The position numbers and the translations under genes were made by a program. From Bolinopsis microptera (Eukaryota > Ctenophora > Tentaculata > Lobata > Bolinopsidae): DNA of 60,000 bases. This document shows, piece by piece, positions 818 through 60,000 of this stretch. Under the pieces are notes generated by a model. That model was given only the letters and a program-made list of their open reading frames with translations. It was not told where the DNA came from and searched no databases. Position 1 is the first letter of the stretch. Every line of letters begins with the position of its first letter. The stretch lies in assembly GCF_026151205.1 (NCBI RefSeq), contig NW_026971773.1:64001-124000 (forward strand), written 5' to 3'.

Positions 818-1986
818 TGCCTCCTGGGATAAAACAATTGTCAACTTTAACACGATAAAATAAAGTTACTTGAGGGCCGAATTGTTTTTAATGTGTGAAT
901 GATTTTTATTTCGATTGCTGGTGGTAAGAATATTCGTTTTAAAGTGTACGATACGAATTACGATCTCCGGTAAAAGCGGTTCACGATATTTTGATATTCC
1001 ATCATGCTCATCTATATAAGATTAATGCAGGGACATTTCTTTGGACGTAAAAGTAGGAGGAAACAGACGGTTACGGGTTTGACCAACGTCACATGATATT
1101 CTTCTGTTGGGAAGTTTCAAAAATTCTATAAAAGCGCGCTTAAAAACGCATGTGACGCGCGAAGAGGAGACCTTTTTCATAACAAATTTGTTTTCGCGCC
1201 CTACGTAAAACTACCTTCTCAATTTTAAATATTGTGTTCCTGAAATTGATACATTGATAAGAGATACATCTAGTTTTGTATTACATGTTCCGGGACTTTA
1301 AGCTATCCTACTGCACTAATTCAGTCTTATTTTTGCACCTGTTTATGTAAAATAAGCCGTTAAGGAAAATACAGTCGCCCAGTCGACATAGGATCTGAAT
1401 TGTGCCAAAATTGAGATGACTCAAAATCTACAACCGGAGAAAGTCAAGGTATTCACAATATACAACTGATATTCCAAGGTAAAGGTAAGTTAAAAGGTTT
1501 TCTAAGAAACTTACACTTGCTGGCAGAGTTCAGGTTATCATGTGCTAAAAGAGTGTTAACGTTAAAATCACATATTTAGAAATTTGCAGACGTGTCCTGT
1601 TTGGAATCAGTATCAATAACAAGGTAACAAGGTAAACATTAAACCTTAAATAAGTAATATTGCACATTTTTATATTAGTTTTTATGTTAGTTGAATAGCA
1701 GCGATTTAAAATCACATTCGAATTCACATTAATTATAAATATGTAGTAAACAAGGTTCAATAATCACGCGGACACGTATGTAGAGGTTGAAGCTAATAAT
1801 AACAATCGTTATTTTTGTCTGATACATGGATTGTAATGTAATTACTAAAAGATAATATTAACTAATAAATATTGTCAATATAGAATATCATAAAATTTCG
1901 TTGAAATGCGTTAAAATACATAAAAAGTAGTCGTGGGAAATCCAAGAATTCAATCCTAAATAAAGATTTAAGATTTACTGCCCTAA
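818..1986. other. Intergenic: DNAJC13 upstream region and PRIM2 3' flank
   Basis: AT-rich spacer between the PRIM2 stop (1987) and the DNAJC13 start (817). It must hold the PRIM2 3' UTR and the DNAJC13 promoter. I see no clear poly(A) signal for PRIM2 on the minus strand. GCGCGC-type palindromic bits occur near 1135-1200. No further gene is visible. Confidence 0.5.
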
Positions 1987-4900
1987 TCAGATATCGTCAA
2001 AATCCTCGTCCTCAGCCAATTCGTTCAACTCCTCTGGAGTTAAGATAGTGGCCACGTTACCAGTCTGGTTACCAAGGTTACCAGGCTGGGACACGTTACC
2101 AGGCTGGTTACCAAGGTTACCAGCCTGGGACACGTTACCAGGCTGGTTACCAAGGTTACCAGCCTGGGCCACGTTACCAGCCTGGTTACCAAGGTTACCA
2201 GGCTGGGACACGTTACCAGGCTGGTTACCAAGGTTACCAGCCTGGGCCACGTTACCAGCCTGGTTACCAAGGTTACCAGCCTGGGCCACGTTACCAGCCT
2301 GGTTACCAAGGTTACCAGGCTGGGACACGTTACCAGGCTGGTTACCAAGGTTACCAGACTGGGACACGTTACCAGGCTGAGACTGAGACCCTGGTATAGA
2401 CTGAGAGGACTGAGCGGAAGATTGAGAAGACTGGTAACCTTGCTTACCTACATTGACTTTGTTACCCAGTGCTTGTTGAGACTCCAAGAAGTACTGGTTA
2501 GGATGATTCAGTCCAAATGCAGCATCCCCCTTGTTGTGTGTAACCTCGTAGTACTTAGAACAGGCTATTTGGTAGTGTTGCCCTGCTACTAGACCTAGTA
2601 TCTCCCTGATATGTATCTTTGGAATCTTCCACGAGGACAGCTTCCTCTCCAAATTCTCCGCATCCATGTGTTTGAAGGGGCAGCCATGACAATCCCCGGA
2701 AGAGGGCCCTGACCCTGTTATTATCTTCATGCACCCGTAAGGTGTCTTATCTGATCTCTTCCCCTCCTTCCCAAACAAATGCCTGACCATGTAGTCGTGC
2801 CCACTTTTACCGTACGTCTCCGAGTCCATCTTCCTGCAAAACTCCTGTCTGAAATAAGTCCTGACATCCTCAATACTGAGCCCCAGTCCCTTGAGGAAGA
2901 GACAGAACTGCAACCTAGCTCCGTGCTTTATGTGATGTTGCTCGGTGAACACCTCGTAAATATTCCTCATGCAGGGAGGGAAGGAGGTTTTAGAGACAGC
3001 AGGTAGTTGAGACACAGAGACCTGGCCCTCTAACTTAGTGCTACTAAAGTCGTCCCCATTATACGCAGTAGTAAGCTCGTTCAGTATAGACATTATCCTC
3101 TCATCGTCACTAACAGCTGGCAGAGATCGCGCGCACTTTATCAGACACTTACTGAGATGTGCGCGGAACATGCCCGTTAGAATGGAAACAAGCTCAGTAT
3201 GCGGCACGTACGCCATCCCTGCCTCTACATATACACGCCTGTGTTTCACCAGCTCTAGAGCCTCAATGAAGGGCACTTTGTACACTGTTATCTTCTCCTT
3301 GTTGTGGTGGATCTGACTTGAGTCTCTTATCAGTTGCTGCTTATCTGCCACCTCGCTCTCTCCTACTTCCTCAAACTTTAGAGAGTTGTCCACTAGGAAC
3401 TGGTAGATCTCCTCTCTGTGCTCCTCTAATCGCAGTCTGAACAACTCCTTCTCGCAATCACAGAACCACTTCCTGTAACCATATTATGTTTACTTAGATA
3501 ACACGTGAGATAACACGTGAGATAACACGTGAGATAACACGTGAGATAACACGTGAGATAACACGTGAGATAACACGGGAGATAACACGGGAGACAACAC
3601 GGGAGACAACACATGAGATAACACGGGAGACAACACATGAGATAACACGTGAGATAACACGTGAGATAACACGTGAGATAACACGTGAGATAACACGTGA
3701 GATAACACGTGAGATAACACGTGAGATAACACGTGAGATAACACGTGAGATAACACGTGAGATAACACGTGAGATAACACGTGAGATAACACGTGAGATA
3801 ACACGTGAGAATACTATCCATCTTACCTCGGCTACCGGAAAAATATTTATAAACCTAATCAGTTTTAAACCTTGTTAACTTTAAAACAAAAACTTCACCA
3901 AATCGTTACTAACAAGAATTGCGCCCGTTGTTTCGTTTTGGCGGACGCTAGATTTCCATTTCACATTTACTATAAATTTAAGTATAAGCTCCAATCAGCT
4001 CACTTCAGACTCAGTCTTCATGATAATAATATTTATAAATTATGCATTAAGTACAGGAAAAACTTGAAATTCAGTTCAATTGCCAAAGAACTTAACTTGT
4101 AAAGCAAAGAACTTAAATTGTAAGCAAAGGTAAACTATACTCGAGTACACATCAATATACACTACGCGTGCCACGTACAAATTGGGCATAATATAACCTA
4201 ATATTATACATTATATCGTATACATTATAACACAGTTGCGCCGCGCATTCATAGATCACAGGCTATCTATACATCACATCTCCGCAAGCAATCCTCGCGC
4301 GCGCAACTTTTTCGTTGCATGGTTACTAACGGAAGGAACACGACATACTCAAACCCACCTACGTACTGCAATCTCCAAAATCCACGTTTTTCTGCAAAAA
4401 CGTCCATTCGTAACCTTTCACTATTGCCTTTTTTCAAAAGGGTGAAAAGGAAATAATCTAGAGAACACTTGGAAATTAAACTCTTACCTCGCTTCCTCAG
4501 TTCTACAATAAGCTAATCTCAGAAGAAAGTGCGAGATGTGATCCTTTCTTCTCTCCTCAGTTTTAGTTTTTGCGTTATTATCTGTCTCCTCCAGGACACT
4601 AGGTCTCAGAGGGAGGTGTGTTTTTATCTCAGAGGTAACAGTTTTCAGGTACATGTCACTACCTCGGTTATACTTAATACCGTTATTGTAGATAGACCGG
4701 AGAATTGTGAGCCTGTCGAGAGCTGTGCTGTAAAACTCAGTAGTGGTGATGTTACCTTGCGGAGGTAATGGTTAGTTGCTAGGTAATGGTTGGTTGCTAG
4801 GTAATGGTTAGTTGCTGGGTAAAGGTTAGTTGCTAGGTAATGGTTAGTTGCTAGGTAATGGTTAGTTGCTAGGTAATGGTTAGTTGCTGGGTAATGGTTA

Positions 4901-6325
4901 GTTGCTAGGTAATGGTTAGTTGCTGGGTAAAGGTTAGTTGCTAGGTAATGGTTAGTTGCTAGGTAATGGTTAGTTGCTGGGTAAAGGTTAGTTGCTAGGT
5001 AATGGTTAGTTGCTAGGTAATGGTTAGTTGCTAGGTAATGGTTAGTTGCTGGGTAATGGTTAGTTGCTAGGTAATGGTTAGTTGCTAGGTAATGGTTAGT
5101 TGCTGGGTAAAGGTTAGTTGCTAGGTAATGGTTAGTTGCTAGGTAATGGTTAGTTGCTAGGTAATGGTTAGTTGCTGGGTAAAGGTTAGTTGCTAGGTAA
5201 TGGTTAGTTGCTAGGTAATGGTTAGTTGCTAGGTAATGGTTAGTTGCTGGGTAAAGGTTAGTTGCTAGGTAATGGTTAGTTGCTAGGTGATGGTTAGTTG
5301 CTAGGGTGATGGTTAGTTGCTAGGTAATGGTTAGTTGCTAGGTAATGGTTAGTTGCTAGGGTAATGGTTAGTTGCTAGGTAATGGTTAGTTGCTAGGTAA
5401 TAGTTAGTTGCTAGGTAATGGTTAGTTGCTAGGTAATGGTTAGTTGCTAGGTAATGGTTAGTTGCTAGGTAATGGTTAGTTGCTAGGTAATGGTTAGTTG
5501 CTGGGTAAAGGTTAGTTGCTAGGTAATGGTTAGTTGCTAGGTGATGGTTAGTTGCTAGGGTGATGGTTAGTTGCTAGGTAATGGTTAGTTGCTAGGTAAT
5601 GGTTAGTTGCTAGGGTAATGGTTAGTTGCTAGGTAATGGTTAGTTGCTAGGTAATAGTTAGTTGCTAGGTAATGGTTAGTTGCTAGGTAATGGTTAGTTG
5701 CTAGGTAATGGTTAGTTGCTAGGGTAATGGTTAGTTGCTAGGGTAATGGTTGGTTGCTAGGTTATGGTTATTGGTTAGTTGCTAGGTAATGGTTAGTTGC
5801 TAGGTAATGGTTAGTTGCTAGGTAATGGTTAGTTACTAGGTAATGGTTAGTTGCTAGGTAATGGTTATTGGTTAGTTGCTAGGTAATGGTTAGTTGCTAG
5901 GTAATGGTTAGTTGCTAGGTAATGGTTAGTTGCTAGGTAATGGTTAGTTGCTAGGGTAATGGTTAGTTGCTAGGTAATGGTTAGTTGCTAGGTAATGGTT
6001 ATTGGTTAGTTGCTAGGTAATGGTTAGTTGCTAGGTAATGGTTATTGGTTAGTTGCTAGGTAATGGTTAGTTGCTAGGTAATGGTTAGTTGCTAGGTAAT
6101 GGTTAGTTGCTAGGTAATGGTTAGTTGCTAGGTAATGGTTAGTTGCTAGGTAATGGTTAGTTGCTAGGGTAATGGTTAGTTGCAAGGTAATGGTTAGTTG
6201 CTAGGTAATGGTTAGTAAGTGATGTTACCTTGCGGAGGGACTGTGTACATGGACAGTCTTGCGGAGTATTTCTCATCTGTGAGAGGGTTGAGTTTCCTCC
6301 TTCTCTTACTGAGACTGAAATCCAT
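1987..6325 (-). CDS. PRIM2: DNA primase large subunit, three exons
   Basis: Primase large subunit, partner of PRIM1 and of DNA polymerase alpha in RNA-DNA primer synthesis in the nucleus. Exons: 6325-6229 (32 codons + 1 nt), 4755-4488, 3472-1987; total 1,851 nt, 616 residues. The start MDFSLSKRRRKL resembles the vertebrate start. Exon 2 carries TTEFYSTALDRL and ERRKDHISHFLLRLAYC; exon 3 begins KWFCDCEKELFRLR. The four Fe-S cysteines are visible at about 289 (SFPPCMR), 369 (TPYGCMK), 386 (CHGCPFKH) and 426 (YQIACSKYYE), almost the same numbering as human 287/367/384/424. HPNQYF follows. The protein is about 100 residues longer than usual because of a C-terminal 13-residue repeat region (about 490-600), ending in an acidic tail. 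Both introns carry minisatellites. Phases match at both junctions and the exon-2 reading runs continuously into exon 3. Confidence 0.93.
2048..2380 (-). repeat. 39-bp coding minisatellite in PRIM2 C-terminus
   Basis: Tandem 39-bp units (13 codons) encode GNVSQPGNLGNQP and variants with A or S, about eight and a half copies. The unit length is a multiple of three, so copy-number change keeps the frame, and the acidic C-terminus (ELAEDEDFDDI) survives after it. The DNA is built on GGTTACC, a heptamer that also occurs in non-coding tandem runs elsewhere in the window (34827-34860, 51853-51917). Confidence 0.92.
3495..3811. repeat. 12-bp minisatellite in PRIM2 intron 2
   Basis: About 26 copies of a 12-bp unit, ATAACACGTGAG, within intron 2 (4487-3473). 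A central block has variants (GGGAG and CATGAG). Most units hold the E-box palindrome CACGTG. Open frames here are repeat artefacts because 12 bp keeps any frame open. Confidence 0.95.
4746..4765 (-). other. Duplicated splice junction, acceptor copy (PRIM2 intron 1)
   Basis: On the minus strand this reads CCTCCGCAAGGTAACATCAC, identical over 20 bp to 6219-6238. Here the internal AG serves as 3' splice site (exon 2 starts at 4755), while in the other copy the same AG|GT is the donor. Splicing between them restores one uninterrupted copy of the coding sequence (PPQGNIT). Confidence 0.85.
4762..6216. repeat. 18-bp minisatellite filling PRIM2 intron 1
   Basis: About 80 copies of an 18-bp unit, plus-strand GGTAATGGTTAGTTGCTA, with variants such as GGGTAAAGG and an inserted TATTGG. 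A longer-range duplication is visible: the block with two GGTGATGG variants at about 5284-5400 recurs at about 5538-5655, so segments of roughly 254 bp have been copied as a whole. It occupies essentially the entire intron between the duplicated junctions. Confidence 0.97.
6219..6238 (-). other. Duplicated splice junction, donor copy (PRIM2 intron 1)
   Basis: Second identical 20-bp copy of the sequence at 4746-4765. Exon 1 ends at 6229 and the intron starts GTAACA, a less than ideal donor, as expected if an exonic AGGT was co-opted. Confidence 0.85.
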
Positions 6326-6796
6326 TCTTACTGAGAGCTAGGTAATAGTTTTAGTAAGATATTTATATAATAAAACTGTTTATAAAGAGTTATCATCATA
6401 ATACACGATTTGATCTTTTGTTTAAATTCATATTATAGCACCATAGAAGGTATGTATATTTTTACAGTAATTTTAGGCAAAAACTATCGTCGAAAAAATA
6501 GTTGCATATTTACAATGGGTTATAAAAACAGAATAATTTCAAGTAAGCTGTTTTTGTGACGGAGGTAAGTATATACCCTTGATAACACATCATCTTATAA
6601 CAAATGCATATTAAAGACTAAAGAGTCATGTTACAATTACAATTGCACATAAATGAAAATGATGTAACTTTTTCCCATATTGTTCGAGAAATTTTGCTTC
6701 ACTTGAGCCTCCTGCCCAATGACAAAACTACAAGATCCGGGACTAAAGTCTCACTTTACAAACAGGAATTATTGTGTTCCTTACTACAAGCAACTT
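6326..6796. other. Spacer upstream of PRIM2
   Basis: AT-rich non-coding region between the PRIM2 start and the next satellite block. It probably holds the PRIM2 promoter. I see no distinct element, and the short open frame near 6628-6810 lacks any recognisable feature. Confidence 0.5.
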
Positions 6797-7485
6797 TAGT
6801 TGCTAGGTAATGGTTAGTTGCTAGGTAATGGTTAGTTGCTAGGTAATGGTTAGTTGCTAGGGTAATGGTTAGTTGCTAGGTAATTATGGTTAGTTGCTAG
6901 GTAATGGTTAGTTGCTAGGTAATAGTTAGTTGCTAGGTAATGGTTAGTTGCTAGGTAATGGCTAGTTGCTAGGTAATAGTTAGTTGCTAGGTAATGGTTA
7001 GTTGCTAGGGTAATACTTAGTTGCTAGGTAATGGTTAGTTGCTAGGGTAATGGTTAGTTGCTAGGTAATGGTTAGTTGCTAGGTAATGGTTAGTTGCTAG
7101 GTAATGGTTAGTTGCTAGGTAATAGTTAGTTGCTAGGGTAATGGTTATTGATTAGTTGCTAGGTAATGGTTAGTTGCTAGTTGCTAGGTAATGGCTAGTT
7201 GCTAGGTAATAGTTAGTTGCTAGGTAATGGTTAGTTGCTAGGGTAATACTTAGTTGCTAGGTAATGGTTAGTTGCTAGGGTAATGGTTAGTTGCTAGGTA
7301 ATGGTTAGTTGCTAGGTAATGGTTAGTTGCTAGGTAATGGTTAGTTGCTAGGTAATAGTTAGTTGCTAGGGTAATGGTTATTGATTAGTTGCTAGGTAAT
7401 GGTTAGTTGCTAGTTGCTAGGTAATGGCTAGTTGCTAGGTAATGGTTAGTTGCTAGGTAATGGCTAGTTGCTAGGGTAATGGTTT
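6797..7485. repeat. Second block of the GTTAGTTGCTAGG minisatellite
   Basis: Same 18-bp family as in PRIM2 intron 1, about 38 units, between PRIM2 and the BLOC1S4-like gene. A block of about 233 bp is repeated (about 6955-7160 and 7188-7400, both with the variants GGCTAG, TAATAG, TAATAC and TTATTGATTAG). It reaches to within a few bases of the BLOC1S4 stop codon, so that gene's 3' UTR would lie in the repeat. Confidence 0.95.
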
Positions 7486-7489
7486 AATG

Positions 7490-10109
7490 TCACCTCACTT
7501 CTCGTGGTGTGACATCACGTGACAGTAATGTTTGTGTGTTAAAAATTTGAGGAATTGTCACTTCGTCACTTTCTCTTTCAGAGCTCCCCTTGAAGAAACC
7601 AAACATCTTCTTAAGCGGATTGGAGTCTACTTGCTTATCTATTGCAGTGGCTGCTACCTCCAACTGAATTATATTACTTAAACTAAACATAAATACAAAA
7701 GTACATTACTTAATTTAAAATTGTTGAAAAAATATTCTTGATAATTCTGGTGTTTTTAGTTTATTTCGGTAGACTAATTAAGTTAATTCCGATTTCAACC
7801 GAGTTTCAAATGACCATTACCTGGGTGACATTAGAGGAGATGTTTCAAATGAACATTACCTGGGTGACATTAGAGGAGATGTTAGAAACTGCCTGATGGA
7901 TGATATCTATCTGTGTAAATAATGACTCCAGTTCTTTAGCTTTCTCAGAGAACAGAGTCAGTCTTGCATCCAGCACCTCCTTATTCGAGTCCTAGTAACA
8001 TGGTTATTAAATGATACACATACTGTGCATTCTTCTAACTGCAACTATAACTGCGTTTCACAGATAATTCGCTGACTGATTAAAAATGATTGCAAAAGAT
8101 ACAAACAATGTTACTAGTATTTTAGAATTCACTGAAACAGAACATGCACATTGTAGAGTAAGGAGAAAGGTACAGAACATGCACATTGTAGAGTAAGGAG
8201 AAAGGTATTTCAACAGAACCTGAAGAGTAAGGAGAGTGGTATAGAGTTCGTCCATCAGTTTCTGAATTCCATCCACTTCACAGTCTAGCTGGGTTAAGAG
8301 AGAACTATTATCCACCTCTAGGTAACCTGGGATTGTTTTTATAATAATAGCAATAAGAGAGAACTATTATCCACCTCTAGGTAACCTGGGATTGTTTTTA
8401 TAATAATAGCAATAAGAGAGAACTATTATCCACCTCTAGGTAACCTGGGATTGTTTTTATAATAATAGCAATAAGAGAGAACTATTATCCACCTCTAGGT
8501 AACCTGGGATTGTTTTTATAATAATAGCAACAAGAGAGAACTATTATCCACCTCTAGGTAACCTGGGATTGTTTTTATAATAATAGCAATAAGAGAGAAC
8601 TATTATCCACCTCTAGGTAACCTGAAATTGTTTTTATAATAATAGCAATAAGAGAGAACTATTATCCACCTCTAGGTAACCTGGGATTGTTTTTATAATA
8701 ATAGCAATAAGAGAGAACTATTATCCACCTCTAGGTAACCTGGGATTGTTTTTATAATAATAGCAATAAGAGAGAACTATTATCCACCTCTAGGTAACCT
8801 GAAATTGTTTTTATAATAATAGCAATAAGAGAGAACTATTATCCACCTCTAGGTAACCTGGGATTGTTTTTATAATAATAGCAATAAGAGAGAACTATTA
8901 TCCACCTCTAGGTAACCTGGGATTGTTTTTATAATAATAGCAATAAGAGAGAACTATTATCCACCTCTAGGTAACCTGGGATTGTTTTTATAATAATAGC
9001 AATAAGAGAGAACTATTATCCACCTCTAGGTAACCTGGGATTGTTTTTATAATAATAGCAATAAGAGAGAACTGTTATCCACCTCTAGGTAACCTGGGAT
9101 TGTTTTTATAATAATAGCAATAAGAGAGAACTATTATCCACCTCTAGGTAACCTGGGATTGTTTTTATAATAATAGCAATAAGAGAGAACTATTATCCAC
9201 CTCTAGGTAACCTGGGATTGTTTTTATAATAATAGCAATAAGAGAGAACTATTATCCACCTCTAGGTAACCTGGGATTGTTTTTATAATAATAGCAATAA
9301 GAGAGAACTGTTATCCACCTCTAGGTAACCTGGGATTGTTTTTATAATAATAGCAATAAGAGAGAACTATTATCCACCTCTAGGTAACCTGGGATTGTTT
9401 TTATAATAATAGCAATAAGAGAGAACTATTATCCACCTCTAGGTAACCTGGGATTGTTTTTATAATAATAGCAATAAGAGAGAACTATTATCCACCTCTA
9501 GGTAACCTGGGATTGTTTTTATAATAATAGCAATAAGAGAGAACTATTATCCACCTCTAGGTAACCTGGGATTGTTTTTATAATAATAGCAATAAGAGAG
9601 AACTATTATCCACCTCTAGGTAACCTGGGATTGTTTTTATAATAATAGCAATAAGAGAGAACTATTATCCACCTCTAGGTAACCTGGGATTGTTTTTATA
9701 ATAATAGCAATAAGAGAGAACTATTATCCACCTCTAGGTAACCTGGGATTGTTTTTATAATAATAGCAATAAGAGAGAACTATTATCCACCTCTAGGTAA
9801 CCTGGGATTGTTTTTATAATAATAGCAATAAGAGAGAACTATTATCCACCTCTAGGTAACCTGGGATTGTTTTTATAATAATAGCAATAAGAGAGAACTA
9901 TTATCCACCTCTAGGTAACCTGGGGTTGTTTTTATAATAATAGCAATGGTTGCAAAACAACACGATAGTCTTGCAACGGTACAAAGGTACACGATTATTG
10001 AATATTGACGTTAAGGAGTTCTTGGACCAGCTGAAACTTTCAAAATCATACCTGCATAACCTAAAGACACGTTTTCGTAAAGTTTGGCAGAGACTTCTGA
10101 ATCATCCAT
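7490..10109 (-). CDS. BLOC1S4: BLOC1S4 (cappuccino)-like, four exons
   Basis: Small coiled-coil protein resembling BLOC1S4, a subunit of the cytosolic BLOC-1 complex needed to make lysosome-related organelles. Exons: 10109-10052, 8317-8220, 7991-7860, 7663-7490; total 462 nt, 153 residues, with phases 1/0/0 all consistent. The N-terminus has LYENVSLGYAEVDNSSLLTQ. The middle is heptad-like (LDARLTLFSEKAKELESLF, then TQIDIIHQAVSNISSNVTQL), followed by NPLKKMFGFFKG. The spacing resembles the family's YxRID-LE-V core. It is shorter than the human protein (217 residues), mostly at the N-terminus. Exon 2 is flanked by tandem duplications on both sides and the exon 3 donor is duplicated; exon 1 has an identical second copy at 11925-11868. 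The family assignment is from memory of the pattern and could be another small BLOC-1-type coiled coil; the gene structure itself is firmer. Confidence 0.65.
7804..7881 (-). repeat. 39-bp tandem duplication of exon 3 end plus donor
   Basis: Two head-to-tail 39-bp copies differing at one base. Each contains the last 22 nt of BLOC1S4-like exon 3 (ending GTCACCCAG) followed by a GTAATG donor and intron bases. The upstream donor (exon end at 7860) gives the open frame; reading on to the second donor meets TGA. Confidence 0.88.
8127..8240 (-). repeat. Tandem copies of BLOC1S4-like exon 2 donor region
   Basis: Exon 2 ends TCTCCTTACTCTTCAG then GTTCTG. Just inside the intron are two near-identical copies of about 35 bp with CTCCTTACTCTACAATG and a following GTTCTG or GTACC. 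The copies align with the exon end, though the exonic copy lacks about 10 bases. The reading as copies of the donor region is by eye. Confidence 0.7.
8296..9946 (-). repeat. 59-bp array carrying the BLOC1S4-like exon 2 acceptor
   Basis: About 28 nearly identical 59-bp units. On the minus strand each unit contains ACCTAG followed by AGGTGGATAATAG and TTCTCTCTTA, which is the 3' splice site and first 23 nt of exon 2. The last unit (about 8296-8320) continues into the real exon; in all others the frame would hit TAA within the unit. The high identity suggests recent expansion or homogenisation. Confidence 0.93.
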
Positions 10110-10594
10110 TTCATTGCCACTATTACTAAATGTGTGAAATATAATCACCTTGGTTAAACTAAATAAAACGTAATTCTACTCTACAGTGTACCCAGTATTA
10201 TTGGCTGGGGAAGGAGCCCCCTTTTGTTTTAAAGAGAGACTGGACCTAGATGAGTCTACGAGAGGGTAGCATTTTTTTGAAAATTCAATTAATCATGTTA
10301 TATAATATATATAAATCAAGCGTTACATTTCAGCCAAAATTACAATGACATTATTTTGATATGTTACTAATGGAAAAATGGTACTGCAATATAAGTTGCA
10401 TACTGTGTGGTCGGATGACAACTTACTAAACTAGAAAAATATACTTGACTATATAATAATTAATTTGGATGAATCAACACAATGTCATAGCAAGAGCCAA
10501 ATTAACATTGGGGCCATCTACCACATTTGAGAATGACAAACAATAACAAAAAATCAAACATGACATAATATAATTTTGCTAATTAAAATTCTGT
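9824..10594. repeat. Segmental tandem duplication, copy 1
   Basis: From the last 59-bp units through BLOC1S4-like exon 1 to AAAATTCTGT at 10594, this is nearly identical to 11641-12410. It includes exon 1 and its likely promoter. Copy 1 is interrupted at 10595 by an insertion; its remaining tail resumes at 11462-11640. Confidence 0.92.
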
Positions 10595-11461
10595 TACAAC
10601 TGAAAACAAGAAAAAAATAAGGAAGACAAAAGGACAGGAAATCGGACGGACAGAATTAACAAGAAACTAATTTCTAGGAATCATATCTAAAGGCTGATGA
10701 GCTAATCTGGCCCAACTGTTAATGATATGAGGACACTATGCCTGCCTCTGGGGTATGGCAACCCTGTAAAGCTGTAAGGGGTTGCTGGAGATATCTATGT
10801 GGACTGCGAAGATGATGGAGGTAAGTGGCAAGTGATATAGGGGGATGAGTAGACGCCTTAGTGCCAAAAATATGAGGACCAAAGAGAAATGAAAGTAACG
10901 GGTGATGACAAAAAATGAGACTTTTTTCAATGGGCATTTTTGGGTCCAAATTTTATTTTTTTGCGAATGGTGTGAAGGCGTTTGTTCAGGTCACAGTGTC
11001 CCATCATATCAGTGGCGTAAGGAAGGGCCCCGCTGACCCCGTTGTGCGGAGGCGCCATCTTAGGGGGGCGCAAAATCGTCGTTTAAATGGGGGACAATTT
11101 TGAAAAACTTAACAAGGTACTGGCAAAACTGTGTGTTTTGCTCTAGAAACACACTTCTTTTAGAGATTTTACCGGCATATCCTCTAAAATCACCTGATTT
11201 CTTCAATTTTAGGGAGGGGCGCCAAAAGGGGAGGGGGTGCCAAAAGGGGAGGGGCGCCAACAGGGGGGCGCCAACAGGCAACGTTACACCACTGCGTCAT
11301 ATGGTGCACTCCAGTTCTGTATTTTTGTCAATTGTTGTTGAGTGTAGAGTTTTTGATAAGGGTGAACTGCTTGTTGTTTGGTGTGTCTGGGACCATCAGT
11401 TAACCAGTCCTCCTGGTTCAGTCTGAGCAACAAAACTTTTAAGGAAATATGACTATCTTCA
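10595..11461. mobile_element. Insertion of about 870 bp in duplication copy 1
   Basis: Present in copy 1 but absent at the equivalent place in copy 2 (about 12411-12452), so it either inserted after the duplication or was lost from copy 2. It contains a hAT-like MITE (11010-11294). A stretch at about 10739-10765 matches, in reverse orientation, 25481-25508 (shared CTCTGGGGTRTGGCAACC), so part of it is a dispersed repeat. I recognise no protein in it. Confidence 0.7.
11010..11294. mobile_element. hAT-like MITE with terminal inverted repeats
   Basis: Ends CAGTGGCGTAA and, reversed, CAGTGGTGTAA. It is flanked by an 8-bp target duplication with one mismatch (CATCATAT at 11002-11009, CGTCATAT at 11295-11302). 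Length 285 bp with no transposase frame, so non-autonomous. The 8-bp duplication and the CAGTGGCG end are typical of hAT elements. Confidence 0.78.
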
Positions 11462-12633
11462 AGCATTTTTACAATGCTATCGCTACCGCCCAATTTCACT
11501 GTCATTCACCAGATAAAAATACCAGCACGCATTCTTCAGACCATGTGTCGCTGCTCTAAATTTACTTCAAGAGATAAGAGTTATTTAATAATTTGTAATA
11601 GTACTGTTGTAGTATCTGTTGATGCAGATGGTGTTTCGAAGCAATAAGAGAGAACTATTATCCACCTCTAGGTAACCTGGGATTGTTTTTATAATAATAG
11701 CAATAAGAGAGAACTATTATCCACCTCTAGGTAACCTGGGATTGTTTTTATAATAATAGCAATGGTTGCAGAACAACACGATAGTCATGTAACGGTACAA
11801 AGGTACACGATTATTGAATATTGACGTTAAGGAGTTCTTGGACCAGCTGAAACTTTCAAAATCATACCTGCATAACCTAAAGACACGTTTTCGTAAAGTT
11901 TGGCAGAGACTTCTGAATCATCCATTTCATTGCCACTATTACTAAATGTGTGAAATATAATCACCTTGGTTAAACTAAATAAAACGTAATTCTACTCTAC
12001 AGTGTACCCAGTATTATTGGCTGGGGAAGGAGCCCCCTTTTGTTTTAAAGAGAGACTGGACCTAGATGAGTCTACGAGAGGGTAGCATTTTTTTGAAAAT
12101 TCAATTAATCATGTTATATAATATATATAAATCAAGCGTTACATTTCAGCCAAAATTACAATGACATTATTTTGATATGTTACTAATGGAAAAATGGTAC
12201 TGCAATATAAGTTGCATACTGTGTGGTCGGATGACAACTTACTAAACTAGAAAAATATACTTGACTATATAATAATTAATTTGGATGAATCAACACAATG
12301 TCATAGCAAGAGCCAAATTAACATTGGGGCCATCTACCACATTTGAGAATGACAAACAATAACAAAAAATCAAACATGACATAATATAATTTTGCTAATT
12401 AAAATTCTGTATTAGGCGGTAGCATTGTAAAAATGCTATCGCGGTAGCGATAGCATTTTTACAATGCTATCGCTACCGCCCAATTTCACTGTCATTCACC
12501 AGATAAAAATACCAGCACGCATTCTTCAGACCATGTGTCGCTGCTCTAAATTTACTTCAAGAGATAAGAGTTATTTAATAATTTGTAATAGTACTGTTGT
12601 AGTATCTGTTGATGCAGATGGTGTTTCGAAGTA
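11462..12633. repeat. Copy-1 tail and duplication copy 2
   Basis: 11462-11640 is the tail of copy 1. 11641-12410 repeats copy 1, including two 59-bp units and a second identical first exon (ATG at 11925, donor after 11868). 12452-12633 repeats the tail. The tandem join falls at 11640/11641, where the tail runs into a satellite unit. The second exon 1 could act as an alternative first exon. Confidence 0.9.
12415..12480. repeat. GGCGGTAGC inverted repeat
   Basis: Arms begin GGCGGTAGC and end GCTACCGCC, each with CATTGTAAAAATGC, separated by a few bases; the left arm lacks six bases. It looks like the two fused ends of a MITE with almost no interior. Only the right arm is present in copy 1 (11462-11490). 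Confidence 0.7.
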
Positions 12634-41778: not shown

Positions 41779-43050
41779 ATGTCAGGCGATAACTCTAATG
41801 AACTGGCTATTGGGAACCTGCTTCTCCGTGCAGGAAGTAATGAAATTGTGAAACGTGTCATTTCAGTTTTTGACCACTCTGCAAAGCGTTCAGCAAATGT
41901 CAAGTCAATATCTGCTTTTAATCTTGATATGTTGGAACCGTGTGCAGAGTTTTTGAACATTGATTTAGCCGACTCAGACGGGAACAAACTGTATACAAAG
42001 GACAGTCTTGCCAATAGAATTCAGTTCGAGCTCCGTGCGTTCCTGCCATCAGAATGCTTGGAATGTAACGAAAAGTACACTGTTGAGTTTGAAGCCGATC
42101 AGAAACCCGTTTTTCACTGTCATATGTGTTTTCGGGGATCTCACAACTGTTCTGCTGTTACGAGTTTCCACGATGTTTTGACTAGTGCTACTCTTCTTTC
42201 TAGTTATGTTTGGTTGTGTAAATCATGCATGGAATCAAGCATTCCTATTAAACCACGAAAATCGAAGAGCCGGCATGATAGTACTGTGAACAAATCAGAT
42301 GATAATACTGTGAACAAATCAGATTCCGAATCTCAGCAACCCAAGCAGGATTTGATTGCGTCACAAATGTCCTCATCCGAGGAAATCACAGAACACTCCA
42401 CTTCTCAATCTAGTGTAGCAATTGACGATTCAGAGCTTCACGAGAAATCATCTGCTGCTGCGCAGGAGAGAATTTGTGAGAAGTACAAGCGTGGAAAGTG
42501 TCCTCATGGTCTCAAGGGGAAGAAGAAACATAATGGTCAGATTTGTGAGTTTGAACACCCGAAGTATTGTAACAGATTCTGTCAATACGGAAATCAGCAC
42601 AAGTTTGGTTGCAGTAAAGGTCCAGACTGCAAGTTTCTTCACCCTGTGTTGTGCAAGTTTTCAGTTAAGAATAAACTTTGCACGAAGTCTGACTGCACTT
42701 TTATTCATTTGAAGGGTACCCGCCGTCAGACAAGCAACTCTGCTGTTGGACACAAGAAAGGAAAAGCAGAGAATAAGAAATCCATGCCATCAAAAGGTGT
42801 AACGGCGGCGAATCAGGATTTTTTAGAGTTACGGAGACTGTTGGAAACGATGCAAACCAGGATCGGACTCCTATCAGAAATAGTCGACCACCGGTCCAGC
42901 CTCCCTCAAACTCAAATGCCCTACCACTACCCCAGACCACCTCCACCTCTTCAGCCAGGAACAGCGCTCCCACTATACCACTACCAGTACCCGCAGTTCC
43001 TACCGCCTCAGAGGACACACGTGCCCCTTATTCCTCATGCCTCGTCTTAA
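41779..43050 (+). CDS. LINE ORF1: zinc-finger RNA-binding protein
   Basis: 423 residues. About 90-155 forms a PHD-like Cys/His cluster (CLECNEKY; FHCHMCFRGSHNC; WLCKSCMES). A Ser/Lys-rich linker follows. About 232-315 has CCCH-type fingers (CEKYKRGKCPHG, CEFEHPKYC, CSKGPDCKFLHP, CTKSDCTFIHLKG). The tail is proline- and tyrosine-rich (PYHYPRPPPPLQPG). ORF1 proteins of LINEs bind the element RNA and form the particle that carries out reverse transcription; CCCH fingers fit this role. The ORF is intact. Its last 274 nt overlap an open reading frame continuous with ORF2. Confidence 0.88.
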   Translation: MSGDNSNELAIGNLLLRAGSNEIVKRVISVFDHSAKRSANVKSISAFNLDMLEPCAEFLNIDLADSDGNKLYTKDSLANRIQFELRAFLPSECLECNEKYTVEFEADQKPVFHCHMCFRGSHNCSAVTSFHDVLTSATLLSSYVWLCKSCMESSIPIKPRKSKSRHDSTVNKSDDNTVNKSDSESQQPKQDLIASQMSSSEEITEHSTSQSSVAIDDSELHEKSSAAAQERICEKYKRGKCPHGLKGKKKHNGQICEFEHPKYCNRFCQYGNQHKFGCSKGPDCKFLHPVLCKFSVKNKLCTKSDCTFIHLKGTRRQTSNSAVGHKKGKAENKKSMPSKGVTAANQDFLELRRLLETMQTRIGLLSEIVDHRSSLPQTQMPYHYPRPPPPLQPGTALPLYHYQYPQFLPPQRTHVPLIPHASS

Positions 43051-43061
43051 ATGTCCAGTCC

Positions 43062-46000
43062 ATGAATCCTAGTGCATCGAGTACGAGTAGATGGAAAGTG
43101 CCAGAAATCTCAGCTCTTATTCAGGATGAGAAATCCAGAAACCACTCGTTACCGTTTATAGCACTTACGGAAACGTGGCTCAAGTCCTATATGTCAGACG
43201 CACAACTGCAAATACCAGGCTATTCGGTATCTCGCAGCGACCGTGATGCAAGGGTGGGAGGGGGTGTTCTACTCTACTCTCATGTCAACTTACCGGTCAG
43301 TGAGTGTAACACGTTTGATGACGGCACGTGTGAGGGACTTTTCTGTAGTTTCAGCACTATAAAGACATGTGTTGCTGTGGCTTATCGTCCGCCTAATGCA
43401 TCCTTGTCAAGCTTTAAAGCACTCCTCAGTTTTTTCTCCGTATGTATCAGTAGTATTAATGACGACAGCTACGATATCATGATGACTGGAGACTTTAACT
43501 TACCCTCAATTGACTGGCAGACAAATTGTGTTCAATCTGGAGGCACGCAAGAAATTCAGCAGTCAGCACAGCATTTCTTAACTTTCATGTCTGATCATCT
43601 GCTGAGTCAGTACGTAATGTGTCCAACGAGAGGAAACAATGTTTTGGACCTGTTTATTACTAACAACAACCGAGTTGTTACAAATGTTGAATGCAAAACC
43701 ACAACAATGTCAGACCATCACGTGGTAGATGTTATGCTAGCATATAATCCACTTGAACAGGAGAAATCAGCAGTGCCGAAGTTTGATGAAAACTCGTACA
43801 GATGCCTTGATTTTCTCCAAGCAGACTTCAGCTCGCTCAGAGACGAGATAGAAGACACTAACTGGTCTCAACTTCGTTCTTCATGCTCTTTTGAAGACTT
43901 CCCAGCCTTGTTTACTGAGACCCTCTTTCAGATATGCTCGTCTCATGTTCCCCGCAAGGCTAAACCTTCTGGGCGCCCAAAACATACCAATGCTTTGCGG
44001 CGTAAAAGGAACCGACTCCAGGCAAGGCTGAATGCCTTAGTCAACAATGGTGCACCTGACGATCACATCAGAAATGTTAGGAACAAGGTTGCACTCCTAC
44101 AGTATGATATTCGATGTGCCCATACCAAGAGACTTGATGAAAAGGAATCCAGGGCAGTAGAAAAGATCAAAACAAATCCCAAGTTCTTTTTCAGTTATGC
44201 TAAGTCTCTGTCGAAGATCAAATCCAGTATTAACATGCTCTTTGATAGCAACCAGGAGATAACCACAGACCCCAAGAAAATGGCCGATCTGCTGCAGGAA
44301 CAGTTCAGCTCTGTGTTTAGCGATCCGACCTCTCCTGATGTTAAGGATCCGGTTTTCTCCCCTCCCTCTATCCAGCACCCACAAGAACTAGAGGACTTTA
44401 GAATTAGTGACGAAGATATCATTTCAGCTATAAAAAGTATCTCTACAGATTCTGCTTGTGGACCGGACGGAATACCTACAACTCTCTTGAAAAACTGTGC
44501 TAAGGAGTTGTGTTCTCCTATACGTATTATTTGGGAGGAATCATTTGAAAACGGTACAGTGCCATCGTTCTACAAAGACACCTACATTACACCACTATTT
44601 AAAAAGGGTGACAGGGCCAAGGCAGTCAACTACAGACCAGTTGCTCTCACTTCGCACATCATCAAAGTGTATGAACGTATCCTCCGTGGTGTTATGGTTG
44701 ATTTTATTGAGAAAAATCAGTTACTCTGCAACAACCAGCACGGGTTCCGCTCAGGAAGAAGCTGCCTTACCCAGCTGTTAAGTCACGTAGACGATATAGT
44801 TCAAGGTCTTACTAGAAATGCAGACACTGACGCTATATATCTGGATTTTGCCAAAGCCTTTGATAAGGTCGATCATCGGTTACTGCTTCTGAAAATGAAG
44901 AGATTGGGGTTTCATGAGAAGGTGGTAAACTGGATCCGATCCTTCCTGACTGAAAGGAAGCAATGTGTTGTGTTAAATGGTGTATCATCGTTTGCTGCCG
45001 CAATCCTCAGTGGAGTTCCACAAGGCACCGTTCTTGGGCCACTGTTATTCATTCTGTTCATAAATGATATGAAGCTATGTGTTAAAGGGTCTGTCATCAG
45101 ATTCTTTGCTGATGACACTAGGATTCTTAAGCATATCTACAGTTTGGCCGACAAAGATGTCCTGCAGGATGATCTCAACTCTGTTGTTAATTGGGCTAAG
45201 TGCAACAACATGGCCCTTCATGAGGATAAGTTCGAGCTTCTTGTTCACAAGCATTGTCCAAAGAATTCCTTGTTTGATCATCCATTCGCCATCCAAGCTC
45301 AAACATATGAAGTGTCTAACGGAAACATGCTGTACCCCACTCAAACGGTGAAAGATCTAGGAGTGACAGTTTCCGCTGATTTGTCCTGGACCCCACACGT
45401 CAACAGGATAGCTGAACGTGCAGGAAAAGTTGCTTCTTGGGTGCTAAGTGCGTTCAAAACGAGAGACAAAGCCACCATGATGACTCTGTACAAGTCTCTC
45501 GTTAGAAGCCATCTGGAGTATTGCTGTCCTCTGTGGAATTGCTCTAAGAACAAGGACATCCAACAGCTAGAAGGGATTCAGCGTACGTTTACATCGAAAA
45601 TAGATGGCACCCAGCACCTCAACTACTGGCAGAGATTAAAGGCCCTAGATCTGATGTCATTGCAAAGAAGAAGAGAACGGTATTTAATCATCAACATGTG
45701 GAAAATTCTGCATTGCAAGTGCCCTAATGATATTGGTATCCAGTTCTCGGTGACTCTCAGACATGGTCAAAAAGCAGTTGTGCCCAGTATAGCTAAGTCC
45801 AGCAGTCAACGTAATCAAGCACTACATGACAACTCATTTGCAGTCACTGGACCTCGATTATGGAATGTAATCCCAACACATATGCACACCATCGAGGATC
45901 CTATGCAATTCAAAGCGGCTTTAACGAACTTTGTGAAGTCATTTCCGGACGAGCCTCCAGCTCCAGGATACAGCCGTCGGAATGGAAACTCCTTGCTTGA

Positions 46001-46064
46001 TTGGAGTGGTGATAAAACAGTTTCTACACTGTCCGGGGGGTCGACTTTTTCGATGGCCCGATAG
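43062..46064 (+). CDS. LINE ORF2: endonuclease-reverse transcriptase
   Basis: 1,000 residues from the ATG at 43062. N-terminal apurinic-type endonuclease with FIALTETWL, GDFNLPSIDW (about 144) and SDHHVVDV (about 217). Reverse transcriptase with NYRPVALTS, YLDFAKAFDKVDH (about 593), GVPQGTVLGPLLFILFINDM and catalytic FADD (about 682). The C-terminal region (YKSLVRSHLEYCCPLWNC, NYWQRLKALDLMSLQRRRER) is typical of CR1/Jockey-like elements. All catalytic motifs are present with no stop, so it may be active. In the same frame LNVQS precedes the ATG, suggesting that the endonuclease starts further upstream, inside ORF1. Confidence 0.95.
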   Translation: MNPSASSTSRWKVPEISALIQDEKSRNHSLPFIALTETWLKSYMSDAQLQIPGYSVSRSDRDARVGGGVLLYSHVNLPVSECNTFDDGTCEGLFCSFSTIKTCVAVAYRPPNASLSSFKALLSFFSVCISSINDDSYDIMMTGDFNLPSIDWQTNCVQSGGTQEIQQSAQHFLTFMSDHLLSQYVMCPTRGNNVLDLFITNNNRVVTNVECKTTTMSDHHVVDVMLAYNPLEQEKSAVPKFDENSYRCLDFLQADFSSLRDEIEDTNWSQLRSSCSFEDFPALFTETLFQICSSHVPRKAKPSGRPKHTNALRRKRNRLQARLNALVNNGAPDDHIRNVRNKVALLQYDIRCAHTKRLDEKESRAVEKIKTNPKFFFSYAKSLSKIKSSINMLFDSNQEITTDPKKMADLLQEQFSSVFSDPTSPDVKDPVFSPPSIQHPQELEDFRISDEDIISAIKSISTDSACGPDGIPTTLLKNCAKELCSPIRIIWEESFENGTVPSFYKDTYITPLFKKGDRAKAVNYRPVALTSHIIKVYERILRGVMVDFIEKNQLLCNNQHGFRSGRSCLTQLLSHVDDIVQGLTRNADTDAIYLDFAKAFDKVDHRLLLLKMKRLGFHEKVVNWIRSFLTERKQCVVLNGVSSFAAAILSGVPQGTVLGPLLFILFINDMKLCVKGSVIRFFADDTRILKHIYSLADKDVLQDDLNSVVNWAKCNNMALHEDKFELLVHKHCPKNSLFDHPFAIQAQTYEVSNGNMLYPTQTVKDLGVTVSADLSWTPHVNRIAERAGKVASWVLSAFKTRDKATMMTLYKSLVRSHLEYCCPLWNCSKNKDIQQLEGIQRTFTSKIDGTQHLNYWQRLKALDLMSLQRRRERYLIINMWKILHCKCPNDIGIQFSVTLRHGQKAVVPSIAKSSSQRNQALHDNSFAVTGPRLWNVIPTHMHTIEDPMQFKAALTNFVKSFPDEPPAPGYSRRNGNSLLDWSGDKTVSTLSGGSTFSMAR

Positions 46065-52822: not shown

Positions 52823-55800
52823 GTCAGGTAAAAATGGACTGGATGATACAATATGTGACACTAAGTTCAGACCCCAATGTCAGGTAAACAAGACTGGATG
52901 GTACAATATGTGACACTAAGTTCAGACCCCAATGTCAGGTAAACAAGACTGGATGGTACAATATGTGACACTAAGTTCAGACCCCAATGTCAGGTAAACA
53001 AGACTGGATGGTACAATATGTGACACTAAGTTCAGACCCCAATGTCAGGTAAAACAAGACTGGATGGTACAATATGTGACACTAAGTTCAGACCCCAATG
53101 TCAGGTAAAACAAGACTGGATGGTACAATATGTGACACTAAGTTCAGACCCCAATGTCAGGTAAAACAAGACTGGATGGTACAATATGTGACACTAAGTT
53201 CAGACCCCAATGTCAGGTAAAACAAGACTGGATGGTACAATATGTGACACTAAGTTCAGACCCCAATGTCAGGTAAAACAAGACTGGATGGTACAATATG
53301 TGACACTAAGTTCAGACCCCAATGTCAGGTAAAACAAGACTGGATGGTACAATATGTGACACTAAGTTCAGACCCCAATGTCAGGTAAAACAAGACTGGA
53401 TGGTACAATATGTGACACTAAGTTCAGACCCCAATGTCAGGTAAAACAAGACTGGATGGTACAATATGTGACACTAAGTTCAGACCCCAATGTCAGGTAA
53501 AACAAGACTGGATGGTACAATATGTGACACTAAGTTCAGACCCCAATGTCAGGTAAAACAAGACTGGATGGTACAATATGTGACACTGAGTTCAGACCCC
53601 AATGTCAGGTAAAACAAGACTGGATGGTACAATATGTGACACTAAGTTCAGACCCCAATGTCAGGTAAACAAGACTGGATGGTACAATATGTGACACTAA
53701 GTTCAGACCCCAATGTCAGGTAAACAAGACTGGATGGTACAATATGTGACACTAAGTTCGGACCCCAATGTCAGGTAAAACAAGACTGGATGGTACAATA
53801 TGTGACACTAAGTTCAGACCCCAATGTCAGGTAAAACAAGACTGGATGGTACAATATGTGACACTAAGTTCAGACCCCAATGTCAGGTAAACAAGACTGG
53901 ATGGTACAATATGTGACACTAAGTTCAGACCCCAATGTCAGGTAAAACAAGACTGGATGGTACAATATGTGACACTAAGTTCAGACCCCAATGTCAGGTA
54001 AAACAAGACTGGATGGTACAATATGTAACACTAAGTTCAGACCCCAATGTCAGGTAAACAAGACTGGATGGTACAATATGTGACACTAAGTTCAGACCCC
54101 AATGTCAGGTAAAACAAGACTGGATGGTACAATATGTGACACTAAGTTCAGACCCCAATGTCAGGTAAAACAAGACTGGATGGTACAATATGTGACACTA
54201 AGTTCAGACCCCAATGTCAGGTAAAACAAGACTGGATGGTACAATATGTGACACTAAGTTCAGACCCCAATGTCAGGTAAAACAAGACTGGATGGTACAA
54301 TATGTGACACTAAGTTCGGACTCCAATGTCAGGTAAAACAAGACTGGATGGTACAATATGTGACACTAAGTTCAGACCCCAATGTCAGGTAAAACAAGAC
54401 TGGATGGTACAATATGTGACACTAAGTTCAGACCCCAATGTCAGGTAAAACAAGACTGGATGGTACAATATGTGACACTAAGTTCGGACCCCAATGTCAG
54501 GTAAAACAAGACTGGATGGTACAATATGTGACACTAAGTTCAGACCCCAATGTCAGGTAAAACAAGACTGGATGGTACAATATGTGACACTAAGTTCAGA
54601 CCCCAATGTCAGGTAAAACAAGACTGGATGGTACAATATGTGACACTAAGTTCAGACCCCAATATCAGGTAAAACAAGACTGGATGGTACAATATGTGAC
54701 ACTAAGTTCAGACCCCAATGTCAGGTAAAACAAGACTGGATGGTACAATATGTGACACTAAGTTCAGACCCCAATGTCAGGTAAACAAGACTGGATGGTA
54801 CAATATGTAACACTAAGTTCGGACCCCAATGTCAGGTAAACAAGACTGGATGGTACAATATGTGACACTAAGTTCAGACCCCAATGTCAGGTAAAACAAG
54901 ACTGGATGGTACAATATGTGACACTAAGTTCAGACCCCAATGTCAGGTAAAACAAGACTGGATGGTACAATATGTGACTCTAAGTTCAGACCCCAATGTC
55001 AGGTAAAACAAGACTGGATGGTACAATATGTGACACTAAGTTCAGACCCCAATGTCAGGTAAAACAAGACTGGATGGTACAATATGTGACACTAAGTTCG
55101 GACCCCAATGTCAGGTAAAACAAGACTGGATGGTACAATATGTGACACTAAGTTCAGACCCCAATGTCAGGTAAAACAAGACTGGATGGTACAATATGTC
55201 ACACTAAGTTCGGACCCCAATGTCAGGTAAACAAGACTGGATGGTACAATATGTGACACTAAGTTCAGACCCCAATGTCAGGTAAAACAAGACTGGATGG
55301 TACAATATGTGACACTAAGTTCAGACCCCAATGTCAGGTAAAACAAGACTGGATGGTACAATATGTGACACTAAGTTCAGACCCCAATGTCAGGTAAACA
55401 AGACTGGATGGTACAATATGTGACACTAAGTTCAGACCCCAATGTCAGGTAAAACAAGACTGGATGGTACAATATGTGACACTAAGTTCAGACCCCAATG
55501 TCAGGTAAAACAAGACTGGATGGTACAATATGTGACACTAAGTTCAGACCCCAATGTCAGGTACAACAAGACTGGATGGTACAATATGTGACACTAAGTT
55601 CAGACCCCAATGTCAGGTAAAACAAGACTGGATGGTACAATATGTGACACTAAGTTCAGACCCCAATGTCAGGTAAAACAAGACTGGATGGTACAATATG
55701 TGACACTAAGTTCAGACCCCAATGTCAGGTACAACAAGACTGGATGGTACAATATGTGACACTAAGTTCGGACCCCAATGTCAGGTAAAACAAGACTGGA

Positions 55801-58800: not shown

Positions 58801-60000
58801 TCAGGTAAAACAAGACTGGATGGTACAATATGTGACACTAAGTTCAGACCCCAATGTCAGGTAAAACAAGACTGGATGGTACAATATGTGACACTAAGTT
58901 CAGACCCCAATGTCAGGTAAAACAAGACTGGATGGTACAATATGTGACACTAAGTTCAGACCCCAATGTCAGGTAAAACAAGACTGGATGGTACAATATG
59001 TGACACTAAGTTCAGACCCCAATGTCAGGTAAAACAAGACTGGATGGTACAATATGTGACACTAAGTTCAGACCCCAATGTCAGGTAAAACAAGACTGGA
59101 TGGTACAATATGTGACACTAAGTTCAGACCCCAATGTCAGGTAAAACAAGACTGGATGGTACAATATGTGACACTAAGTTCGGACCCCAATGTCAGGTAA
59201 AACAAGACTGGATGGTACAATATGTGACACTAAGTTCAGACCCCAATGTCAGGTAAAACAAGACTGGATGGTACAATATGTGACACTAAGTTCGGACCCC
59301 AATGTCAGGTAAAACAAGACTGGATGGTACAATATGTGACACTAAGTTCAGACCCCAATGTCAGGTAAAACAAGACTGGATGGTACAATATGTGACACTA
59401 AGTTCAGACCCCAATGTCAGGTAAAACAAGACTGGATGGTACAATATGTGACACTAAGTTCAGACCCCAATGTCAGGTAAAACAAGACTGGATGGTACAA
59501 TATGTGACACTAAGTTCAGACCCCAATGTCAGGTAAAACAAGACTGGATGGTACAATATGTGACACTAAGTTCGGACCCCAATGTCAGGTAAAACAAGAC
59601 TGGATGGTACAATATGTGACACTAAGTTCAGACCCCAATGTCAGGTAAAACAAGACTGGATGGTACAATATGTGACACTAAGTTCAGACCCCAATGTCAG
59701 GTAAACAAGACTGGATGGTACAATATGTGACACTAAGTTCAGACCCCAATGTCAGGTAAAACAAGACTGGATGGTACAATATGTGACACTAAGTTCAGAC
59801 CCCAATGTCAGGTAAAACAAGACTGGATGGTACAATATGTGACACTAAGTTCAGACCCCAATGTCAGGTAAAACAAGACTGGATGGTACAATATGTGACA
59901 CTAAGTTCAGACCCCAATGTCAGGTAAAACAAGACTGGATGGTACAATATGTGACACTAAGTTCAGACCCCAATGTCAGGTAAAACAAGACTGGATGGTA
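52823..60000 (+). repeat. 56-bp satellite array, runs off the window
   Basis: About 128 units of 55 or 56 bp containing CAAGACTGGATGGTACAATA, TGTGACACTAAGTTCAGACC and CCAATGTCAGGTAAA. Length variants differ by one A; point variants (TTCGGACC, TGTAACAC) recur along the array, which suggests block duplication. Each unit has a donor-like CAG|GTAAAA preceded by an open stretch reading DWMVQYVTLSSDPNV in one frame. The period is not a multiple of three, so the array is not coding as a whole. Confidence 0.97.

Follow-up and report, generated by a model that had tools for sequence, protein, structure and literature searches.

Intron 1 of PRIM2 in the comb jelly Bolinopsis microptera is likely a fairly young spliceosomal intron that arose when minisatellite DNA was inserted into a continuous exon at ...CGCAAG/GTAACA... 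(the slash marks a predicted splice site), leaving 20 bp of exon on each side of the insert. The gene, which takes part in DNA replication, lies in a 60,000-nt stretch of the RefSeq assembly GCF_026151205.1 (contig NW_026971773.1, positions 64,001 to 124,000, forward strand), referred to below as the window; positions are those of the window unless stated otherwise. The birth of introns is still argued about, largely since gained introns seldom keep a readable footprint together with a known source. At the PRIM2 locus the empty site can be read directly, both predicted splice sites come from the 20-bp duplication, and a probable donor of the filler sits half a kilobase off.

A 20-bp exon duplication bounds PRIM2 intron 1

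PRIM2 is a minus-strand gene of three exons, in which the joined segments 6325-6229, 4755-4488 and 3472-1986 form a continuous reading frame of 616 codons and a stop. Residues 1-476 of its product match the Pfam family DNA_primase_lrg (PF04104) with an E value of 8.5e-75 (252 bits versus a cut-off of 22.4). When the same 476 residues were compared with solved primase large subunits, query residues 8-469 were aligned at an E value of 1.4e-128; the best-matching chains are presumably human. Exons 1 and 2 had no match elsewhere in the genome, and a second copy of PRIM2 was not found in the 264.65-Mb assembly (264,652,675 bases in 232 contigs).

The coding part of exon 1 (6229-6325, minus strand, 97 nt), defined by translation and by alignment to solved primase large subunits, ends in phase 1 with ...CCTCCGCAAG. 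Exon 2 (4488-4755, minus strand) is defined by the spliced frame and the primase match. The intron predicted between them (4756-6228, minus strand, 1473 nt) follows from the reading frame, from conservation and from the stop that appears if it is retained; it is positioned after 97 coding nt, in phase 1, and has canonical GT-AG ends (GTAACA...CCGCAAG).

These borders coincide with a duplication. The 20-mer CCTCCGCAAGGTAACATCAC is present in the window in two exact copies (4746-4765 and 6219-6238), which lie on the minus strand and differ at no position. Allowing up to 3 mismatches gave no third match in the window (shuffling it 100 times gave an expectation of 0.00), and genome-wide there were exactly 2 exact matches, both at the ends of intron 1, compared with 0 for the reversed control. 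In the upstream copy (6219-6238), AAG/GTAACA forms the predicted 5' splice site after 6229, while in the downstream copy (4746-4765), CGCAAG/G forms the predicted 3' splice site before 4755; the intron has its initial GT in the first copy and its final AG in the second. The space between is taken up by an 18-bp minisatellite (4763-6216, 78.8 copies, sense-strand unit CAACTAACCATTACCTAG), delimited by Tandem Repeats Finder and a unit census.

Joining 6229 to 4755 yields YTVPPQGNITTTEF; its alignment with YLQPPSENISLIEF of the solved primase large subunits is gap-free. Read through intron 1 unspliced, the frame meets a stop at codon 38. Because of the gap-free primase alignment, the codon-38 stop and the uniqueness of exons 1 and 2 in the genome, splicing at 6229/4755 is strongly implied, and we infer that this junction is the one used in RNA. 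An earlier interpretation made from the letters alone (the sequence-only reading) had proposed that two identical 20-bp copies bound the intron, that their AG/GT serves as donor in the upstream copy and as acceptor in the downstream copy, that splicing restores the conserved PRIM2 sequence, and that an 18-bp minisatellite fills the space between. On these points it was correct, as it was on the range (4746-6238), on the sequence and on the predicted junction 6229/4755.

Evidence for intron gain in a continuous exon

Since exon 1 end and exon 2 start are contiguous in each copy of the 20-mer, an uninterrupted exon once existed at this place. It is therefore well supported by the sequence that intron 1 was gained (or regained) in a formerly continuous exon, with the protein unchanged. 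If an older intron at the same place had been lost beforehand, the event would still be a gain.

The sequence-only reading had attributed this gain to tandem duplication of an exonic AGGT and had called the locus the exact signature of that model (the Rogers model). To compare intron with exon beyond the duplication, we used an alignment anchored on the 20-mer, covering the 26 nt after it and the 26 nt before it, and drew the comparison pools from 1826 windows of the PRIM2 coding sequence (CDS) and 5000 random 26-mers of the window. The score of the 26 nt after the 20-mer was equalled or beaten by 353 of the 1826 CDS windows and by 1044 of the 5000 random 26-mers, a pool that includes array DNA; for the 26 nt before the 20-mer, 890 of the 1826 CDS windows did as well or better. 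In this alignment no exon likeness beyond 20 bp was detected on either side. The exon-derived share of the intron amounts to 20 of 1473 nt, the remainder being the 18-bp minisatellite. A longer duplication hidden by decay, which a likeness by eye between the first unit and exon 2 had brought up (CTACTGAGTTTTACAGCA), was removed from consideration by the same alignment.

The earlier proposal therefore stands in part: a continuous exon gained an intron, a duplicated AG/GT provides the predicted splice sites and the protein stays the same. The interior of the intron, however, is not detectably exon-derived, and the claim of an exact signature is not supported, as the duplication ends at 20 bp and what lies between is a minisatellite common to a neighbouring array. 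Insertion with a 20-bp target duplication fits the sequence better than strict tandem duplication.

The intron array, its neighbour and its candidate splicing signals

A second array of the same 18-bp unit is located at 6796-7484, in the same orientation as the intron array and approximately 0.56 kb upstream of the upstream 20-mer. The two arrays have in common the main unit, two variants and a longest stretch of 89 bp. The 36-mer made of two units has 36 exact matches in the genome, all on one strand, with 30 in intron 1 and 6 in the array at 6796-7484; it does not occur outside these two arrays in the 264.65-Mb assembly. Searching with a 72-nt consensus, for which 15 candidates were scored and the counts are lower bounds, gave matches at other genomic places of 94% over the full length (contig C5) and 95% over 38 nt (contig C11). 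The C5 array (L001) has zero whole units in common with the intron array, and their common stretch is at most 28 bp. The array at 6796-7484 is the closest relative of the intron array that we found, and is probably its source. At nine places with looser relatives of the 18-bp unit, where exons were judged by eye, no exon was seen to be interrupted by an array that a short duplication borders.

The sense strand of intron 1 contains 77 CTAAC, 78 AG and 2 GT, one of the latter being the donor. As oriented, the array would thus supply CTAAC branch-like sites and nearly zero competing GT donors, whereas the opposite orientation of the main unit would present GGTTAG and AGGTAA donors. By motif count and sequence, the last CTAAC (4771-4775, minus strand) is a candidate for the branch site. 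Counting back from the end of the intron, its second A is nt 17, and the next AG downstream of this CTAAC is that of the acceptor.

On our reading of the junctions, AGG at the left one is common to the exon end and the array unit, and the right one has two additional bases (AA). End-joining often leaves additional bases at junctions. The shared AGG and the added AA would fit an origin by repair or template switching, although these are small clues.

Proposed mechanism

In the mechanism that we favour, the inserted minisatellite would probably have come from the array approximately 0.56 kb upstream (6796-7484), with copying running from that array into the exon. This could have happened by a staggered break with overhangs of approximately 20 nt, repaired with the neighbouring minisatellite, or by a template switch, in which a polymerase would leave the exon, copy the array and re-enter 20 nt behind its point of departure. 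Either route would leave 20 bp of exon on each side of the insert, and a single event would suffice. Of the two AG/GT copies, the first would then act as 5' splice site and the second as 3' splice site; the repeat, in antisense orientation, would bring in CTAAC branch-like sites and nearly no competing GT. The spliced product would be the old protein, so the insertion would be tolerated.

A broader and rather doubtful suggestion concerns arrays of the GTTAGTTGCTAGGTAAY kind in general. Because one strand of such arrays gives CTAAC and AG in nearly every unit and hardly any GT, while the other gives GGTTAG and AGGTAA donors, they might represent ready-made intron cargo in a minisatellite-rich comb jelly lineage. 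Local copying into exons at AG/GT with a short target duplication would then be a standing, transposon-free route of intron birth.

Rarity of the configuration in a genome sample

The genome sample comprised the window and 20 arbitrary 10-kb stretches, 260 kb in total. Tandem repeats of any length covered 16,792 of the 60,000 window bases and 33,318 of the 200,000 bases of the random stretches. We tested the flanks of 119 arrays that were 60 bp or longer (27 from the window, 74 from the random stretches and 18 from nine chosen loci). The test considers one longest match per array, in exactly two copies and within 40 bp outward, and can miss cases; exon-like copies in loci L005-L007, described below, were left unflagged. 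A two-copy match of at least 11 nt was found near the ends of 19 of the 119 arrays, and by coordinates 17 of these lay within the array and 2 flanked it (PRIM2 and locus L003). Among the 101 arrays of at least 60 bp in the 260 kb, that of PRIM2 was the sole one found with a short duplication lying outside the array. Likewise, among the direct-repeat pairs of 16-60 bp listed, the PRIM2 pair was alone in having an interval made up entirely of array, the next highest value being 0.50.

As a possible target motif we considered CTCCGCAA, which had 35 matches in 16 bins of 3 kb versus 4.3 expected; it was dropped, its contexts being mixed (arrays and an apparent dispersed repeat). CACGTGAC was also commoner in the 260-kb sample than expected from base composition (30 of 104 bins versus 4.2).

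Duplications and arrays at other apparent exon borders

At locus L003 (405-738; C8:16851900 onward), a 17-bp array is flanked on either side by what looks by eye like an exon end of approximately 55 bp, with a few mismatches; by eye, too, the array unit seems to read across the junction of a tandem duplication. In L005, L006 and L007 (C13, ~14.785-14.818 Mb), an exon-like end plus donor appears by eye in the fetched stretches 4, 2 and 9 times, respectively, between arrays of related units. The gene there looks transporter-like (by eye SLC7-like), and these may be possible pseudo-exon arrays.

Two further cases, both seen by eye, lie next to PRIM2. In the minus-strand gene upstream of it, a 39-bp tandem duplication at 7803-7883 doubles a donor-like ACCCAG/GTAATG, 39 nt apart and in frame. 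In the same gene, a 59-bp unit at 8295-9947, repeated 28 times, spans the acceptor-like CCCAG/GTTACCTAGAGG (CCCAG/GTTACC), and a minus-strand count throughout the window likewise gave 28 copies. All these cases sit at apparent existing exon borders. Collectively, they suggest that splice sites are a frequent meeting place of short duplications and arrays in this genome, and they keep alive the possibility that at PRIM2, too, duplication came first.

Alternative origins of the intron

Under that alternative, a short exonic segment with AGGT underwent head-to-tail duplication, as in the Rogers model, and the minisatellite later grew at the junction or was added to it. We regard this as unlikely, although it would place AG/GT within the duplicated segment and leave the protein unchanged, and although L003, with its exon-like end on both sides of the 17-bp array, indicates that in this genome an array may well grow after a duplication. 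A 20-bp intron is hardly spliceable, and a second event would have been needed exactly at the junction; moreover, the interior is not detectably exon-derived, and its unit is common to the neighbouring array. Less probable again is a mobile or retroposed, introner-like insertion, in which minisatellite RNA or a non-autonomous element would have entered by transposition or target-primed reverse transcription and produced a 20-bp target-site duplication. This length is within the range of target duplications made by long interspersed nuclear elements (LINEs), and a long open frame at 42777-46064 has by eye the look of a LINE-type endonuclease and reverse transcriptase. On reading, however, the insert consists of array throughout; inverted ends, poly(A) and other cargo were not seen, albeit without a dedicated inverted-repeat search, and the exact 36-mer is absent outside the PRIM2 locus in the 264.65-Mb assembly. 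Introners often recruit splice sites from target duplications, but the available part of PMC9860276, from which this is taken, gives those duplications as 3-9 bp.

Animal genes are intron-rich, and an old intron at this position of PRIM2 could in principle have had its ends made identical to the neighbouring exons later, through cDNA-mediated conversion or through loss and regain at the site. AG/GT is, moreover, a favoured intron site according to the part of PMC3443670 available. We nevertheless consider such a history very improbable: each intron end would need an exact copy of 10 nt from the opposite exon, the contiguous 20-mer at both ends requires an uninterrupted template, and loss followed by regain would still amount to a gain. 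An assembly artefact, with the array misplaced into the PRIM2 exon, has the slightest chance of all. The locus does belong to a 198-kb contig (C14) rather than to one of the 13 large contigs, and tandem arrays are hard to assemble, but a misjoin would not predict a 20-bp duplication together with clean restoration of the frame by splicing, and PRIM2 exons 1 and 2 are without a match elsewhere.

Several observations weigh against the insertion of minisatellite DNA that we favour. In the acceptor CAAG/G, the A at -3 is uncommon, so the acceptor may be weak or splicing inefficient. Approximately 17% of randomly sampled bases are in tandem repeats, and a repeat could therefore have grown inside an intron of other origin. 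In the 260 kb, AGGT was not enriched among the 315 two-copy direct-repeat pairs that were 11-40 bp long and lay outside arrays (13 occurrences, both strands); compared with the other orderings of A, G, G and T (12 in all), its rate was the lowest, near the next (91 vs 94 per 10,000 background). Since in these 260 kb PRIM2 was the sole array found with an outside duplication and AGGT was not enriched, we claim no wave of such gains: intron 1 is a single clean case, with no evidence of a genome-wide wave. Border repeats as such prove little, given that in Drosophila, according to the available part of PMC3443670, repeats of at least 5 bp flank 25% of gained introns versus 26% of conserved ones. 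Finally, the direct repeats at the borders of Daphnia pulex introns attributed to staggered breaks are 4-12 bp in the available part of PMC4202315, versus 20 bp at PRIM2.

Other features of PRIM2 and the window

PRIM2 exon 3 (1986-3472, minus strand), defined by the frame and the Pfam match, contains an in-frame 39-bp coding array at 2053-2379, seen as GNLGNQ...GNVSQ repeats near the C-terminus. Intron 2 (3473-4487, minus strand) has GTAAGA...TTACAG ends and holds an unrelated 12-bp array at 3496-3810; a two-copy 13-mer was looked for at its ends and was absent. Elsewhere in the window, a tandem duplication with an 1816-bp period spans 9926-12410 (identical stretches of 29, 15 and 620 bp), and a 56-bp array of approximately 128 copies at 52823-60000 runs to the window end. 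In the assembly as a whole, 13 contigs of 15-26 Mb together hold 258.07 of the 264.65 Mb (97.5%). Of two glutamate-receptor queries from this genome, one had AMPA and kainate receptors among its 60 listed matches, and the other had ML032222a iGluR, a Mnemiopsis sequence, as its top match (E value 1.1e-33).

Comparison with known systems of intron gain

If confirmed in relatives, PRIM2 intron 1 would be a datable, testable intron gain in a ctenophore, and would suggest that ordinary minisatellite DNA, once inserted in the right orientation, can be spliced immediately. Among the listed titles and abstract openings of the literature on intron gain, tandem repeats, introners and ctenophore introns, a scope that excludes most subscription papers, none describes inserted minisatellite DNA that takes its splice sites from a duplicated piece of exon. 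The comparisons that follow draw on the available parts of the papers cited.

Cases of intron birth by AGGT duplication include ATP2A1, fission yeast and potato (PMC4974935). As in the tandem-duplication model, one exonic AGGT is present twice at PRIM2, as predicted donor and acceptor; unlike in that model, of which a duplicated-exon interior is the defining feature, the interior is not detectably duplicated exon. With introners that make target-site duplications (PMC9860276), intron 1 shares the recruitment of splice sites from a target duplication. It differs from them in that the insert is a tandem array, that a dispersed family of close copies was not found with the exact 36-mer or at the nine places with looser relatives, and that the duplication is longer than 3-9 bp. 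Families without terminal inverted repeats, as well as those with such ends, are counted as introners (PMC9860276).

Repeat DNA has also been tied to new introns in Cryptococcus CNN00420 (PMC2395259), in human DSS and UBC (PMC10809524) and in human internal tandem repeats (PMC2812944), and in this respect these cases resemble PRIM2; in DSS, moreover, one AG/GT is both donor and acceptor. However, every repeat unit of UBC has its own AG/GT, the repeats of CNN00420 are whole introns and the human cases involve activation of cryptic sites. In PRIM2 intron 1, by contrast, the predicted splice sites belong to the exon duplication, which has two copies and lies outside the array.

The footprint of PRIM2 intron 1 is closest to that of the introns attributed to staggered-break repair in Daphnia pulex (PMC4202315, PMC3443670), which likewise have a direct repeat of exon at both borders and a foreign filler. 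The source of the filler is seldom found in staggered-break gains (PMC4974935). In this the PRIM2 intron departs from the Daphnia type, because its filler has a probable source, a minisatellite approximately 0.56 kb away.

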